DNA of 43,319 nucleotides from Oscillospiraceae bacterium. GTDB lineage: Bacteria > Bacillota > Clostridia > Oscillospirales > Ruminococcaceae. The position numbers were made by a program, and so were the translations under genes. How positions within the stretch are numbered: the first letter of the stretch is position 1; each line of letters opens with the position of its first letter. The notes under the pieces were generated by a model. The model was not told the origin of the DNA, did no database searches, and saw nothing but the letters and a program-made list of their open reading frames with translations. The stretch spans positions 1 through 43,319 of the forward strand of contig JAEELE010000099.1 of NCBI GenBank assembly GCA_016288755.1. The letters are read 5' to 3'. Below, in pieces: positions 22,062 through 40,058 of the stretch.

Positions 22062-24446
22062 TCAAAGATGCCAGATGTTCTTCGCATACTCGGTGACAGC
22101 GCGGTCGGCGGAGAAGATGCCTGCGCCTGCGATGTTGTTGAGGCTCATGCGCGCAAAGCGGTGCTTATCCGCATAGCACTGTGCTGCATAAGCCTGCGCG
22201 GCGCGGTAGCTGTCGAAGTCCGCGAGCACCATATAGGGATCGACGGTGCGCAGCGACTGCGCGATCTCCGGGAAGCTGATATCGTTGATGCCGTGCTGAA
22301 TACGGTCGACGCAGGCACGGATGATGCCGTGATTGTTGCAGATATCCTGCGGACGGTAATGCGGCTTGCGGGAGTTGACCTCCTCGGTCTTCATGCCGAA
22401 GATGATGATGTTTTCATCGCCTGCGGCGTCCTTGATCTCGATATTTGCACCGTCGAGCGTACCGATCGTGACAGCACCGTTGAGCATCAGCTTCATGTTG
22501 CCCGTGCCCGAAGCCTCGGTGCCCGCGAGCGAAATCTGCTCGGAGAAATCGGAAGCCGGCATCAGCAGCTCGGAGAGCGTGACGCAGTAATTCTCGAGGA
22601 AGACGACCGACAGCTTATCCTTGATCTTCGGGTGGCGGCGAATCTCCTCGGAGAGCGCCCAGATCATCTTGATGATCTGCTTTGCGAGATAATAGCCCGG
22701 GGCTGCCTTTGCCGCAAAGATATAGGTCTTCGGCGCGAAATCCATATCCGGATTTTCGAGCAGCATCAGGTAATCCGCGAGGATGTTGAGCGCATTGAGG
22801 TGCTGGCGCTTGTATTCGTGCAGACGCTTGACCTGCACGTCGAAGGCGCCGTCGGGATTGAGGATGATGCCGTTCTTCGCCTTGACATACTTGGCAAACT
22901 CCTCCTTGTTTTTGCGCTTGACAGCCGTCAGCTTGTCGAGCACTTCGGCGTCATCCTGGAACCGGCGCAGCTTTTCGAGCTCAGAGGCGTTCTTGAGGAA
23001 GCCTGTGCCGATCGTGTCGCGCAGGAGCTGCGTGAGCCCCGGGTTCGACTGATACAGCCAGCGGCGGTAGGCGATGCCGTTGGTGACATTCGTGAACTTC
23101 TCGGGCGTGTCGCAGAATTCATCGTGGAAGACGCGCTCCTTGATGATCTCGGAGTGCAGCTTGGAAACGCCGTTGACGCTGTGCGATGCCGCGACGCAGA
23201 GGGTCGCCATGTGGATCATGTTGTCCTGAATGATCGACATGCGGGTGGTCAGCTCGCTGTTGCTGGTCTTCTCGAAGATGCGTGCGCAGTAGCGGTTGTT
23301 GATCTCGACGATGATCGAGAAGATGCGCGGGATGACTCTGCGCACAAGGTTGATATCCCACTTCTCGAGCGCCTCAGCCATGACCGTGTGGTTGGTGTAG
23401 GCGAAGACTCTGGTGGTGATATCCCATGCCTTATCCCAGCCGTAGCCGCAGTCGTCGAGCAGAATGCGCATCAGCTCGGGGATGGCGAGCGTCGGGTGGG
23501 TGTCGTTGATATGGATCGCGACCTTGTCGGCGAGGTTGTCGAGCGTGCCGTAGACGCTCATGTGGTTGTTGACGATATCGCCGACTGCCGCCGCACAGAG
23601 GAAATACTGCTGACGCAGGCGCAGCGACTTTCCCTCGAGATGGTTGTCGTTGGGGTAGAGCACCTTCGAGATCGCGTTTGCGATGGAATTCTGCGCCAGT
23701 GCCTTGGAGTAGTCGCCCTGATTGAACATCGCCATATCGAAGCTCGGTGCCTTTGCCGCCCACAGTCTCAGCACGGAGACCGCGTTGGAGCCGTAGCCCG
23801 AGACATACATGTCATAGGGGATCGCGGTGACGGTCGAGTAGTTGACATGGGAAACGTGGTGATACTGCTGATCCCAGTATTCCTCGAGATCGCCCTCGAA
23901 GTGGACCTCGATCGCCTGCTCGGGTCTGGGGTCGAGCCAGACCTCGCCGCCGGGGAGCCAGTTGTCGGGGAGCTCGGTCTGCCAGCCTTCCTCGAGCTTC
24001 TGCTTGAAGATGCCGTACTCATAGCAGATCGAGTGACCGGTCGCCGGGTAGCCCGTGGTCGCGAGACCGTCGAGATAGCATGCGGCGAGACGCCCCAGAC
24101 CGCCGTTGCCGAGACCCGCGTCGGGCTCGTAGTCGTAGATGCGGTCGAGCTTGATGTCAAATTTCTTGAGAAACTTCTCGATATCCTCAGCCAGCTCGAG
24201 ATTATACAGGCTGGTTTTGAGGGAACGTCCCATGAGGAACTCCATCGAGAGGTAGAAGATCTGCTTCTCGCCGGTGGAATTGACATGGTTCATGAACTTC
24301 TGACGCTTGGTTCTCATCAGCTCGCAGATGACGGAGGAGAGTGCCAGATAGATCTGCTTGTCGCTTGCCTCGTCGGGCGTGACGTTGAACTGTGTCTGCA
24401 GGCGGTTCAGGAAATCCTGCGTGACCTTTTCGGAAAATTTGGACAT
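22062..24446 (-). CDS. glgP: Glycogen phosphorylase
   Basis: The 794-aa product releases glucose-1-phosphate from glycogen or maltodextrins. It has the N-terminal EKQIFYLSMEFLMGRSL, the substrate region LGRLAACYLDGLATTGYPAT, and the pyridoxal-phosphate site EASGTGNMK with the Schiff-base lysine at about K652, followed by LMLNGAVTIGTLDGANIEI. Length is normal for bacterial GlgP. ATG 24446 (MSKFSEK) has GGAG 8 nt upstream; the frame stays open to 24872 but that stretch crosses the promoter. Transcription starts near 24566, giving a leader of about 120 nt. No glgA, glgB or glgC genes are in the window. GH13 and a membrane protein follow on the same strand past a terminator. Confidence 0.96.
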   Translation of the reverse strand: MSKFSEKVTQDFLNRLQTQFNVTPDEASDKQIYLALSSVICELMRTKRQKFMNHVNSTGEKQIFYLSMEFLMGRSLKTSLYNLELAEDIEKFLKKFDIKLDRIYDYEPDAGLGNGGLGRLAACYLDGLATTGYPATGHSICYEYGIFKQKLEEGWQTELPDNWLPGGEVWLDPRPEQAIEVHFEGDLEEYWDQQYHHVSHVNYSTVTAIPYDMYVSGYGSNAVSVLRLWAAKAPSFDMAMFNQGDYSKALAQNSIANAISKVLYPNDNHLEGKSLRLRQQYFLCAAAVGDIVNNHMSVYGTLDNLADKVAIHINDTHPTLAIPELMRILLDDCGYGWDKAWDITTRVFAYTNHTVMAEALEKWDINLVRRVIPRIFSIIVEINNRYCARIFEKTSNSELTTRMSIIQDNMIHMATLCVAASHSVNGVSKLHSEIIKERVFHDEFCDTPEKFTNVTNGIAYRRWLYQSNPGLTQLLRDTIGTGFLKNASELEKLRRFQDDAEVLDKLTAVKRKNKEEFAKYVKAKNGIILNPDGAFDVQVKRLHEYKRQHLNALNILADYLMLLENPDMDFAPKTYIFAAKAAPGYYLAKQIIKMIWALSEEIRRHPKIKDKLSVVFLENYCVTLSELLMPASDFSEQISLAGTEASGTGNMKLMLNGAVTIGTLDGANIEIKDAAGDENIIIFGMKTEEVNSRKPHYRPQDICNNHGIIRACVDRIQHGINDISFPEIAQSLRTVDPYMVLADFDSYRAAQAYAAQCYADKHRFARMSLNNIAGAGIFSADRAVTEYAKNIWHL

Positions 24447-24572
24447 TGCTTGACTCCATTCTCCGGTATGCATATGGAATCTGACGGACCCGCACCCCGT
24501 GCGCGGGAGCTGCTGCCGGCATACCGGACTGTACGGCAGCAATTTGTTGTGAAGGGATGCACATACGCTCTT

Positions 24573-24601
24573 ATTATACCCGATTTTGCAGGAAAAAGCA
24601 A
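24573..24601 (-). promoter_or_regulatory. Promoter of glgP, TTGC plus T-tract class
   Basis: On the minus strand CTATTGCTTTTTCCTGC (TTGCTT at 24596-24601), a 17-bp spacer and TATAAT (24573-24578). Confidence 0.82.
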
Positions 24602-24956
24602 TAGCCGAAATTGACAAAAAAACGACATGATTTCCGGTGAATAGACGAAAACGGCACTGCTTTGCCGTCATTTTGCACAAACCGAGCGCCGGTTCTTGCA
24701 GCAAACTGACGAATTTCGCAGAATTCTTGCTGCTTTGCAGCCGCAGCGGCGGGGGAGCGGTTTTCCGGTGAAATTGTGCGGAGCGCGGGCGAAAAGATTT
24801 GTTTTGCGTCTCGCTCCATGTGTAAAGCGATACCGTGAATCTGCACAAATGCGGAGGCAAATCCGAGCGCATAATCAGATGATGCTACAAAGTTTCGGAA
24901 ATGCTGTTATTCCGCGCACCGGTTTTGCCATCCCGGTTGACAGAGGGCAAAACACG
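24602..24956. other. 355-nt gap between glgP promoter and the ABC operon, no gene seen
   Basis: No convincing coding frame is seen on either strand; long open frames here are extensions of glgP or of the small peptide frame without start signals. TTTCCGGTGAA occurs twice (near 24631 and 24763), a possible direct repeat. I found no good plus-strand promoter for the ABC operon. Confidence 0.4.
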
Positions 24957-36298: not shown

Positions 36299-38647
36299 AT
36301 GCAGATTTCACCCCAGATCAAACAGCAGGCACTGACGGCATATCTGACCTCACTCGGGCTCAATCCTCCGCAGCAGGAGGCGGTGCGCACCGTCGAGGGA
36401 CCCGTCAGCGTGCTTGCGGGCGCGGGCAGCGGCAAGACCACTGCCATCGTCAACCGCATTGCCTTCATGATGCGCTTCGGCAACGCCTACTACGGCGAGA
36501 CGCCGCCGCCCGCCGACGAAGCGGACGCGGAATATCTCGCCCGGGTCGCTGACGGAACGCTCCCCCCCGATGCCGACCGGCTCGCGGAGCTTCTCGGCTT
36601 TGCCCCGATCCCCGGCTGGCGCATCCTCGCGATCACCTTCACCAACAAGGCTGCCGCAGAGCTCAAAGCCCGTCTCGCCGCCATGCTCGGCGATGCAGCG
36701 GGCGATGTCTGGGCGGCGACCTTTCACAGCGCATGTGTCCGCATCCTGCGGCAGCACATCGACCGCCTCGGCTACGACAGCGCCTTCACGATCTATGACG
36801 CCGACGACGCCCAGCGCGTCACGGCAGCCGTCATCAAGGAGATGGGGCACGGCGTCACCGAAAAGACCTTCCCGCCGAAGGTCATCTCCTATGAGATCAG
36901 CCGGGCAAAGGACAGGCTCATCACGCCGGAAGCCATGCTCGCTGAGGCGCAGGGCGATTACCGCGGCACGACCGTCGCGAAGATCTACGCCGCCTATCAG
37001 CAGCAGCTCAAAAACGCCAACGCGCTGGATTTTGACGATATCATCATGCTGACCGTGCAGCTCTTCCGGCAGTGCCCGGATGTGCTCGACAAATATCAGA
37101 GCCGCTGCCGCTATCTGCTCGTTGACGAGTATCAGGACACCAACCCCGCACAGTATGAGCTGATCCGCCTGCTCGCCGAAAAGCACCGCAATCTCTGCGT
37201 GGTCGGCGACGACGATCAGAGCATCTATAGTTTTCGCGGCGCGACCGTCGAGAATATTCTATCTTTCAAGACACAATTTCCGGACTGCAAGGAAATCAAG
37301 CTGGAACAGAATTATCGCTCGACGCAGCCTATCCTTAATGGTGCAAACGAAGTTATCCGCCATAATCAAGCGCGAATGCCCAAAACACTCTGGACTGCAA
37401 TTGAAGGCGATGTTGAGGTACGCAAGTATACCGCTCTCGACCAAGATGATGAAGCTCGGTTTGTGGCAGATGCCATAGTCAGAGGGATTAAGAAAGGCGG
37501 ACATTACCGAGATTATGCCATTCTTTACCGAACACATGCACTGTCGAATGCGCTGGAACGGCGATTCTCGTTAGCGAATATACCTTATCGTGTCTTTGGC
37601 GGACTTCGCTTTTTTGAGCGAAAAGAAATCAAAGATGTAATCGCATATATGTGTGTAGCCAATAATCCGGGGGATACGCTTCGTTTTCAGCGAATCATCA
37701 ACGAACCGAAACGAGGCATCGGCACACAAACATTAAAAAACATCCTTGATATATCGGCGGATTTACACATGACACCACCGGAAGTCTTGCGTGAAGCAGA
37801 TTCATTTCCTGTTTTGCGGCAGCGTGTTGGCATACTTCAAGAAACCGGAGCGATGTTTGAAGAATTGGCGGATGCCGCTTTAGAACTGCCTTTAGATGAA
37901 TTTTACGATTTCTTGCTTGATATAACCGGCTACAAAGAAATGTTGGAGAACGAAGGCGCTGAAAGTCAAACACGCCTTGAGAATATCGAGGAATTGAAAT
38001 CCAGTATTCTTGCCTATATTGAGCAAGCGACACGTGAAGAGGAAGAACCTACACTAAACGGCTTTCTCGAAGAAATCTCACTGTATACAGATCAGGATCG
38101 CGCTGATGAATCAACAGACGCCTTAACGCTCATGACAGTTCATTCCGCAAAGGGACTTGAATTTGAATGTGTATTTCTGGTTGGCATGGAGGAAGAAATA
38201 TTCCCGAGTCGCCAAAGCATAGCCAACGGTGAGATTGAAGAAGAAAGGCGTCTTGTATATGTCGCGATCACTCGTGCCAAGCGGCGTCTATATATCACGA
38301 CGGCACTTAAACGAACAATCTTTGGACGCAGCGTAAGAGGCATTCCATCTAGGTTCCTGAAAGAAATGGGACAGTATTTGGTTGATTTTAAGGGCGACAC
38401 CCCGCACCGGGCATCCGGCAGCGCAGCGATGCAGAAGCCGCTCCGCAGCACGGCGGTCACGGGCAGGGAAAAGCAGTCCGCGCCGGTGCAGCTCTCCGTG
38501 GGCGACCGCGTCAGGCACATGACCTTCGGCGAGGGCACGCTGCTCTCTGTCACCCCGATGGGCGGCGACAGTCTGCTGGAGATCGCCTTCGACAGGGTCG
38601 GCACAAAGAAAATCATGGCGAATTTCGCCAGAATCCGAAAGGTCTGA
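36299..38647 (+). CDS. pcrA: UvrD/Rep family DNA helicase (PcrA-like), mosaic gene
   Basis: The 782-aa product is a superfamily 1A 3'-5' helicase for DNA repair and replication restart. Motifs in order: QQEAV, Walker A AGAGSGKTT (40-48), AITFTNKAA near 110-118, DEYQDTNP, VVGDDDQSIYSFRGA, QNYRSTQPIL, VHSAKGLEFECVFLVGMEEE, and RRLVYVAITRAKRRLY. A stretch near 59-104 is about 40 residues longer than usual. A C-terminal extension with VGDRVRHMTFGEGTLLSV is the RNA polymerase-binding domain of PcrA. From about 37250 to 38395 (residues 318-699) codon use turns sharply AT-rich (CGA, TTA, CTT, ATA), though the frame is unbroken. ATG 36299 has CGGAG 13 nt upstream. Confidence 0.9.
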   Translation: MQISPQIKQQALTAYLTSLGLNPPQQEAVRTVEGPVSVLAGAGSGKTTAIVNRIAFMMRFGNAYYGETPPPADEADAEYLARVADGTLPPDADRLAELLGFAPIPGWRILAITFTNKAAAELKARLAAMLGDAAGDVWAATFHSACVRILRQHIDRLGYDSAFTIYDADDAQRVTAAVIKEMGHGVTEKTFPPKVISYEISRAKDRLITPEAMLAEAQGDYRGTTVAKIYAAYQQQLKNANALDFDDIIMLTVQLFRQCPDVLDKYQSRCRYLLVDEYQDTNPAQYELIRLLAEKHRNLCVVGDDDQSIYSFRGATVENILSFKTQFPDCKEIKLEQNYRSTQPILNGANEVIRHNQARMPKTLWTAIEGDVEVRKYTALDQDDEARFVADAIVRGIKKGGHYRDYAILYRTHALSNALERRFSLANIPYRVFGGLRFFERKEIKDVIAYMCVANNPGDTLRFQRIINEPKRGIGTQTLKNILDISADLHMTPPEVLREADSFPVLRQRVGILQETGAMFEELADAALELPLDEFYDFLLDITGYKEMLENEGAESQTRLENIEELKSSILAYIEQATREEEEPTLNGFLEEISLYTDQDRADESTDALTLMTVHSAKGLEFECVFLVGMEEEIFPSRQSIANGEIEEERRLVYVAITRAKRRLYITTALKRTIFGRSVRGIPSRFLKEMGQYLVDFKGDTPHRASGSAAMQKPLRSTAVTGREKQSAPVQLSVGDRVRHMTFGEGTLLSVTPMGGDSLLEIAFDRVGTKKIMANFARIRKV

Positions 38648-38651
38648 TAAC

Positions 38652-40058
38652 ATGACGACAAACAATACCGCATCACAGGGCGCCGTCCGCACGGACGGAG
38701 AGGAGCAGGCAGTCAGCGTGCTGCAAGCCTTCCGCGAAATGATGGACACCAAGGCGGCGAAGGCGATCCTCTTTCTGCTGCAGTTCATCGGCTCGCTCTT
38801 CACGCTGTTCTATCTGAAGGGCGTCGTGCTGTTCGCCTATAACAGCCTGTTCTTCCGGCTGGATATCCCCGAGGAGGCGTCCTCGAGCTATGCCGTTGCC
38901 GTGACCTTCACCTGCATCGGCTGGGGCGCGCTCATGCTCTTCACCCGCCGGCAGATCGTCACGCGGCTGGTCATTATGCTCTGCATGCCGCTCTATTTCC
39001 CGATCTTCCTGTTCAATTATCAGCATCTCTGCCTGATCGTGCCGCTGGGCATCTTCATCGCGGTCACCTATCTGGCGAGCGGCACGGGCGAGGGCGTCAA
39101 GACCATTCTCGGCGCCGTGTGGCTGATGTTCTATGTGGTCGGCGCGTTCGTGTTCCTCGCGGTGCAGAGCGTGCTGCAGCCCGCGGTCTCGGAATTCACC
39201 GTCGAGCGCGGCGTTTCCAAGGCGGGGAATTACCGTTATTCGATCGTCGAGGTCAATGACCGCGCAGACGGTCACACCTATGTCTCGATCGAGCCGAACA
39301 CCTACGATATCAGCTACGACCGCTCCAAGTGGTACGCAAAGGGCTACGAAAAGACGATCTATCTGTCCCGCCCGCGCACCGAATTCACCACGGACTGGGA
39401 GATCGAGTCCCGCGCGGATATCACCCGCGAGCTGCTGATGATCAACCCGCGCATGGAGTTCACGCTCAATGCAAAGCAGATGAAAACGCTCGGGCTCGAT
39501 GCCGAATTCAAAAAGGAATATGAGGTCGGCGACCTCGGGCGCAGCGCGCGCCGCAAGCTCGGCATCGCGATCCAGAAGGACCTCGACCTGCTCGGGCAGA
39601 CCCCCGAGGCGCAGGGGCTCAAGCTCTACAAGGCTGACGACACGATCACGCTGAGCTTCGCGCAGATGGAGACCGCCGGGCTGACGATCAGTCAGGACGT
39701 GCGCCTCTCCAATCTCTCCGACGAAAACCTCGCAGCCCTCGGCGTGCCGGAGCAGTGCGACGTGCTCTCCGTCAACGGCAAGGTCGTCTTCCGGCAGTAT
39801 ATCGCGGTGCTCGAGTGCATCTATGACACCGACAACCGCAGCCTGACCGCCTTCCTTGAACCGAACACGCTGCCGGAGATCGTTGACCCGAAGAATATCC
39901 CGCCGGTCCCGGAGCGCCGCGGCGGTCTCTACAGCGAGAGCAGCACAGCGCCCGCCGAGACCACGACCGAGACGACGGAGACCACCGTGACCACAGAGAC
40001 CACCGAGGAGACGACGACCGTCACGACAAAATCCCGCCGCCGCGGCGCTGCGGCTTAA
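38652..40058 (+). CDS. Multi-pass membrane protein with Thr-rich tail, 468 aa
   Basis: The product starts with a soluble MTTNNTASQGAVRTDGEEQA, then about five membrane segments between 38 and 180 (for example AILFLLQFIGSLFTLFYLKG, LVIMLCMPLYFPIFLFNY, LCLIVPLGIFIAVTYLA, ILGAVWLMFYVVGAFVFLAV). A 260-residue outer or inner soluble part follows, with YVSIEPNTYDISYDRSKWYA and LSVNGKVVFRQYIAVLECIY. The end is a run of Thr and Glu (TTTETTETTVTTETTEETTT) and a basic tip KSRRRG. No family is recognised. It follows pcrA by 4 nt without its own strong binding site, so it shares that transcript. Confidence 0.72.
   Translation: MTTNNTASQGAVRTDGEEQAVSVLQAFREMMDTKAAKAILFLLQFIGSLFTLFYLKGVVLFAYNSLFFRLDIPEEASSSYAVAVTFTCIGWGALMLFTRRQIVTRLVIMLCMPLYFPIFLFNYQHLCLIVPLGIFIAVTYLASGTGEGVKTILGAVWLMFYVVGAFVFLAVQSVLQPAVSEFTVERGVSKAGNYRYSIVEVNDRADGHTYVSIEPNTYDISYDRSKWYAKGYEKTIYLSRPRTEFTTDWEIESRADITRELLMINPRMEFTLNAKQMKTLGLDAEFKKEYEVGDLGRSARRKLGIAIQKDLDLLGQTPEAQGLKLYKADDTITLSFAQMETAGLTISQDVRLSNLSDENLAALGVPEQCDVLSVNGKVVFRQYIAVLECIYDTDNRSLTAFLEPNTLPEIVDPKNIPPVPERRGGLYSESSTAPAETTTETTETTVTTETTEETTTVTTKSRRRGAAA

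Follow-up and report, generated by a model that had tools for sequence, protein, structure and literature searches.

A PcrA/UvrD-type helicase gene at a native locus

The window, by which we mean the whole 43,319-nt stretch analysed (Oscillospiraceae bacterium, contig JAEELE010000099.1), carries a helicase gene (L001) whose product has the same domains, in the same order, as PcrA/UvrD-type SF1A helicases (UvrD-helicase, UvrD_C and PcrA_UvrD_tudor) (Table 1). Pfam scores were 285.6 bits for UvrD-helicase (cut-off 23), 253 bits for UvrD_C (cut-off 25.6) and 47.8 bits for the Tudor domain (PF21196, cut-off 23.9). The NCBIfam PcrA equivalog TIGR01073 was the top hit of 18 families, with 806 bits; because this is below its curated cut-off of 911.2, we use the label PcrA/UvrD-type. 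Residues 105–782 align with the solved PcrA structure 1pjr (601 bits). The window gene differs from other helicases of this type in its sub-cut-off PcrA score, in an insert of about 40 residues (query 60–104 versus 4 in 1pjr) and in the composition of the block described below. The insert is common to the aligned genus relatives.

The downstream neighbour is conserved at 25 of 25 relatives' loci (tblastn), indicating that the helicase locus is native. The upstream neighbour was found in 0/25 of the relatives' flanks, which extend for at most 1.5 kb.

Table 1. Features of the helicase locus, other features of the window and the second helicase gene with a composition switch.
Feature	Position	Strand	Basis or remarks
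PcrA/UvrD-type helicase gene (L001)	36299–38647	+	782 residues; frame open over 782 codons
N part, motor domain 1, codons 1–318	36299–37252	+	Host-like codon usage; Pfam UvrD-helicase 94–328
Insert of about 40 residues	36476–36610		Absent from 1pjr but for 4 residues
34-base identity to L014	37196–37229	+	Exact match at the left edge of the block
AT-shifted block, codons 319–697, motor domain 2 (UvrD_C)	37253–38389	+	Changepoint fit; codon-usage likelihood; UvrD_C 333–669
Linker and C-terminal Tudor domain	38390–38647	+	Host-like codon usage; PcrA_UvrD_tudor at residues 734–781
Downstream gene, 468 aa, no Pfam family	38652–40058	+	tblastn against relatives' loci; Pfam scan
Glycogen phosphorylase gene	22062–24872	-	
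pcrA of genome G881/G119 (L064)	contig JAGAWT010000028.1		Water deer omasum MAG, genus g91, same family

An AT-shifted block spans the second motor domain

GC3 is not flat across the gene. A two-changepoint fit returned a block at codons 319–697 with a GC3 of 0.389 inside and 0.826 outside, and a likelihood ratio of 158.8 (155.9 in the 170-gene comparison below), compared with a maximum of 21.0 in 200 codon permutations. In 40-codon bins, GC3 was 0.72–0.90 over codons 1–320, 0.38–0.50 over codons 321–680 and 0.70–0.93 thereafter (0.93 in codons 721–760, then 0.77), and the lowest bin in a 1-kb profile of the window (37001–38000) lies within the block. The original prediction had placed the switch at 37250–38395, which is right within the uncertainty of the edges.

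The 2-lnL intervals of the edges are codons 306–320 on the left and 696–699 on the right. A codon-usage likelihood, which took seven GC-rich genes of the own genome and block codons 356–690 as references, put the right switch at codon 697 and the left at codon 343. On the right, the edge is pinned down to within a few codons (38384–38395). The left edge is fuzzy; as the codon-usage curve is flat over about codons 310–345, it is placed only as a range (codons 306–345, 37214–37333), which we take to be motif III to motif IV of the helicase. The edges of the block coincide with domain edges, with UvrD_C inside it and the Tudor domain outside. In an alignment of 26 genus genes there is no gap at the left edge, while the right edge sits in a poorly conserved linker whose length varies in many rows.

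The AT-rich codons named in the original prediction are all present: the block holds 8 CGA arginines, 12 CTT, 6 TTA and 7 TTG leucines, 7 ATA isoleucines and a TCT-AGG pair. The frame is also unbroken, as that prediction stated, with all 782 codons open and no gap relative to 25 relatives around the left edge. Base frequencies at the fourfold sites of the block are close to equal (A.29, C.24, G.21, T.25), as after randomisation, and CGN arginines far outnumber AGR (28 to 4), as in four relatives compared; both features would fit local fast evolution in place, a reading that involves no exchange and in which the interior would have mutated at a higher rate, and more towards AT, than the ends. 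The fact that the edges follow domain borders argues against that reading. Strand-specific C-to-T hypermutation was ruled out, since C and G both drop at the fourfold sites of the block.

General codon heterogeneity of the genome was also rejected as an explanation. Among 241 ORFs of at least 150 codons in 368,467 bases of the own genome (the window and 20 further stretches), the helicase gene ranked first for an internal GC3 switch; the runner-up was a gene for a GDSL lipase, with a score of 80.5.

In the GDSL-lipase gene (L071:13095-14708; G000:C28:93095-94708), the first approximately 225 codons have a GC3 of 0.41 and the remainder 0.79. The AT-rich part contains no Pfam domain and is perhaps an added domain.

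The block is absent from relatives, with one similar case in another genus

The genus set comprised 30 genomes including our own, and the helicase gene was found in 26 of the 29 relatives (25 whole, one partial). None of these 26 genes has an AT-shifted block, in agreement with the earlier expectation that it would not be shared by all relatives. Among 170 distinct pcrA genes, the GC3 switch score was 155.9 for L001, 70.2 for L064 and no more than 24.3 for the other 168. All of these genes come from the family except L065 and L066, and L205, L242 and L243 were left out. The set is non-random, consisting of best matches, the genera of L001 and L064, and 30 genes picked for low block scores, one of which was L064 again. 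The helicase GC3 switch is therefore not unique to the window gene, as L064, from another genus of the same family, also has one.

As a control we scored uvrB, for which 90 loci were fetched and 88 were readable. No block was detected in any of the 88 (maximum 20.0; 11.1 in the own genome and 4.2 in the genome of L064), although uvrB is about 130 codons shorter than pcrA and the control hence slightly less sensitive. A difference of 2/170 pcrA versus 0/88 uvrB could arise by chance.

One further pcrA, L233 (G227:C5:46992-49253), has a GC3 of about 0.2 throughout (bins 0.07–0.35) and is 44 % identical to the window protein. AT-rich members of pcrA thus exist in the family, but far from the window genus.

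In L064, GC3 is 0.57–0.78 over the first 80 codons, 0.15–0.42 over codons 81–720 and 0.60–0.65 at the end. The best block spans codons 94–699 (left 83–112, right 696–719), which map to residues 94–692 of the window protein (right 689–705), such that the right edges of the L064 and L001 blocks overlap while the left edges do not. L064 ranked first of 97 sampled ORFs in its own genome (72.5, next 28.4), and 14 other pcrA genes of its genus were flat (maximum 17.6; 15 of 20 genomes matched, including its own). Of 232 interior columns without variation among 12 mates, L064 breaks 26 (mates 0–8), and of 38 such columns in the ends it breaks 2. These data do not show faster change inside the L064 block, as the interior/end identity ratio of 1.236 is within the range of the mates (1.145–1.391). 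In the tree the L064 interior falls within its own genus, where L192 is its sister (support 98). Composition, right edge and an apparently native genealogy are what L064 and L001 have in common. They share two broken columns (317 and 324), too few to build on.

The block falls within its own genus but has a long branch and little codon memory

Trees of 32 rows were computed separately for the N part and the block. In the best trees L001 stands beside L004 and L005 in both parts, with support of 94/84 in the N part and 74/18 in the block; the corresponding genomes are also the nearest by purA (G023 for L004, 90 %; G018 for L005, 89 %). The AU test rejected a position of L001 outside the rest of the genus in both the N part (p 0.038) and the block (p 0.023, at a cost of 14.8 lnL). 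Among placements within the genus, L001 with L017 was rejected for the block (p 0.0017), and those with L016, L018 and L027 stay (0.51, 0.45 and 0.26). For the N part, L016 and L018 were rejected (0.030 and 0.026), and L017 and L027 stay (0.23 and 0.14). L001 shares five residues almost only with L004 and L005 in the block (nine control pairs, 0–4) and two in the N part (0–2), and it keeps 34 of 41 genus-typical columns in the N part and 17 of 24 in the block.

These data suggest that the nearest kin of the block belong to its own genus, with the sister species placed nearest by the best tree, at weak support. Since the best trees of the two parts agree, the trees do not show a foreign donor, and because the block and the L064 interior both join their own genus, neither would derive from a distant group. 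This agreement is also what fast evolution in place would give, as is the position of the AT-shifted L064 interior; the ordinary identity ratio of L064 runs counter to that reading. Differing trees for the separate parts had been foreseen in the original prediction. The parts do differ in composition and in branch length, although not in the best topology.

From the N part to the block, the end branch of L001 lengthens from 0.23 to 0.68, more than in any other of the 32 rows (next gain, 0.16), and the block/N ratio of mean identity to the genus is 0.828 for L001 versus 0.889–0.954 for the other 25 rows. Synonymous codon sharing in the N part gave z 3.3–5.3 for 20 of 25 relatives and 0.3–2.4 for the other five, and in the block z lay between −0.4 and 2.9 for all 25. 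Codon memory in the block is nearly lost, which, if the gene had evolved in place, would need a long time or a very high rate.

In a 48-row set, L001 breaks 9 of 122 conserved columns in the block and 0 of 108 in the N part (other genus rows 0–4 and 0–2). In a 166-row family set it breaks 3 of 185 (other rows: median 1, maximum 16). Decay of the block was rejected on account of these three breaks among 185 family-wide conserved columns. A longer branch combined with ordinary family-wide conservation is expected of a working copy that spent time elsewhere.

No donor was found beyond the genus

A search with the block among 396 family genomes (own included) returned six other genus members at the top (59–66 %), followed by the next genus at 58 %. 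Further afield, among the matches listed, identity was at most 56 % in 245 genomes of the order and at most 50 % in 245 of the class. A donor outside the genus was therefore rejected, as the family, order and class sets gave no closer match among those listed and the AU test speaks against it. Neither the plasmid records nor the phage records contained a sequence that reaches 60 % to the block (best 48.9 and 53.3 %, respectively, among the matches listed); viral contigs gave 46 % at best, and two further viral searches returned no match. On this basis a phage, plasmid or viral donor was rejected, the best value among the matches listed being 53.3 %. With the block inside the genus, the source would be either a close lineage or a copy on another replicon, and we infer that the incoming copy came from an AT-shifted close lineage or was kept on another replicon.

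The own genome contains AT-rich tracts that resemble integrated elements, among them one of about 50 kb (G000:C28:1-51000, L067–L069), mostly 37–49 % GC (49–55 % at 21–24 kb) versus 51–65 % beyond. Most of its genes lie on one strand, and it encodes a distant UvrD-like helicase (33 % identity over 108–431). It is probably an integrated mobile element. The tract was rejected as the obvious source of the block because the arginine codons differ (AGA 113/252 in the tract versus AGA+AGG 4/32 in the block).

Replacement of the UvrD_C half by recombination is the preferred explanation

We consider it probable (about 0.64) that homologous recombination replaced the UvrD_C half of the gene (codons about 319–697) by that of a diverged copy. 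That copy would have evolved for long in an AT-shifted background, in an unsampled close lineage or on an AT-rich replicon, and the crossovers would lie in the DNA of motif III–IV on the left and, on the right, where the linker to the Tudor domain begins. A long stay in such a background, then replacement, would account for both the abrupt edges and the shifted composition, and for codon memory being lost while conserved sites are kept. Recombination is the best mechanism because the edges are sharp, the frame is intact, the block is absent in 26 relatives and the downstream neighbour is the same. Homologous replacement by a divergent donor was the original proposal; its mechanism remains the most likely one, whereas the divergence of the donor holds only in part, the nearest kin of the block being apparently its own genus.

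The DNA at the two edges gives a mixed picture. At the left edge, 34 bases are identical to L014 and end where the sequence starts to depart (motif III). This is the longest exact match among 89 pcrA loci and possibly marks the left recombination site, or a place for an assembler mis-join, although its length alone is not special, since a control stretch of the N part has a 30-base match. On the right, no exact match to the 89 loci exceeds 14 bases (controls: 20 inside the block, 30 in the N part). Exchange with a distant donor would be unexpected at this edge, which fits neither exchange nor a mis-join well unless the parents were close there.

An assembly chimera, in which the ends of the own gene were joined to a middle from an AT-richer genus member in the same sample, is unlikely, yet it is the alternative that survives best. 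The genome is a draft of 141 contigs with 4.1 % contamination, and the 34-base identity offers a place for a join. Three relatives have partial pcrA ends near the block edges: a second partial copy in G017 (G017:C141:6-983) stops at residue 325, which lies at contig base 6; a match in G026 (G026:C93:5752-6714) ends at residue 316, with an open frame of 325; and the contig of L192 ends 20 bases past a frame that stops near the right edge. Assemblies may therefore break there, and these ends represent either assembly-breaking conserved DNA or real strain variation. The MAG of L064, too, appears to be among the MEGAHIT/IDBA-UD assemblies that a passage of PMC8199421 describes, although the label RGIG, which the L064 contig title gives for this water-deer MAG, does not occur in that text. 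However, a chimera would require the assembler to mis-join twice at a distance of 1.1 kb, keeping the frame both times and returning to the original genome, and to have done so in L064 as well; matches between the right edge and the 89 loci are at most 14 bases long; and none of the 88 uvrB loci of this family, most of them likewise from multi-contig genomes, showed a block.

Somewhat more doubtful is a round trip, in which a copy of the own gene drifted on an AT-rich mobile element and then converted the chromosomal gene back. It would account at once for the block's native genealogy and AT composition, its longer branch and its sharp edges; relatives of the gene occur in plasmid and phage records, and the own genome has the AT-rich tract with its distant UvrD-like gene. 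Against this, identity to the block is below 60 % throughout the plasmid and phage records, the helicase on the tract is just 33 % identical, and the arginine codons of the tract are unlike those of the block.

A more speculative reading, to which we give little credence, is that the helicase core of pcrA, and not the Tudor tail, is recurrently renewed by an undescribed process, either hyperevolution confined to this region or repeated conversion from a concealed copy on an element. It is prompted by the AT-shifted interior, own genealogy and same right edge in two genera, and by the faster change of the window gene; that the L064 data show no such faster change makes it less likely. Least credible of all is fast evolution in place without exchange, as we know of no mechanism by which a mutation bias would be restricted to 1.1 kb and end within a few codons.

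Precedents and consequences of the proposed replacement

Intragenic replacement is a known kind of event. Mosaic aminoglycoside-resistance genes, as presented in part of PMC4437187, likewise have a gene part replaced in frame by a diverged homologue; here, in contrast, a housekeeping motor gene is affected, the block appears nearest to its own genus, and neither a donor nor a selection is known. Lateral transfer of gene fragments in prokaryotes is similar in that the transfer unit is smaller than a gene (excerpts of PMC3212841), but the edges of the window gene lie at domain borders and the composition is strongly different. Among the open-licence papers listed in literature searches, none was a report of a mosaic pcrA.

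The hybrid protein would presumably work as an ordinary PcrA/UvrD helicase with its Tudor tail left native. In Bacillus PcrA, the Tudor tail binds RNA polymerase. If the exchange is true, diverged alleles of a core helicase can trade this motor half while all motifs are kept and the tail stays native, and an exchange within a genus that is plainly visible in composition can escape notice when only gene trees are used. Neutral exchange is our default. Selection on either half would nevertheless be conceivable, given that RNA polymerase is contacted by domain 2A as well as by the Tudor domain, that MutL binds 2B (PMC8318588) and that ICEBs1 uses host PcrA (PMC3542172). Escape from a phage inhibitor, raised in the original prediction, is speculative, and none of the present observations hints at it. 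Two pcrA cases versus none in 88 uvrB, which chance might also yield, would mark pcrA for the study of what drives exchange, with mobile elements that depend on host PcrA as a candidate driver.

Elsewhere in the window, the glycogen phosphorylase gene is matched in most relatives only from residues 60–141 onward, and in 15 of 29 relatives the matched stretch contains in-frame stops. Its start has probably been over-called, or a conserved leader precedes the frame.
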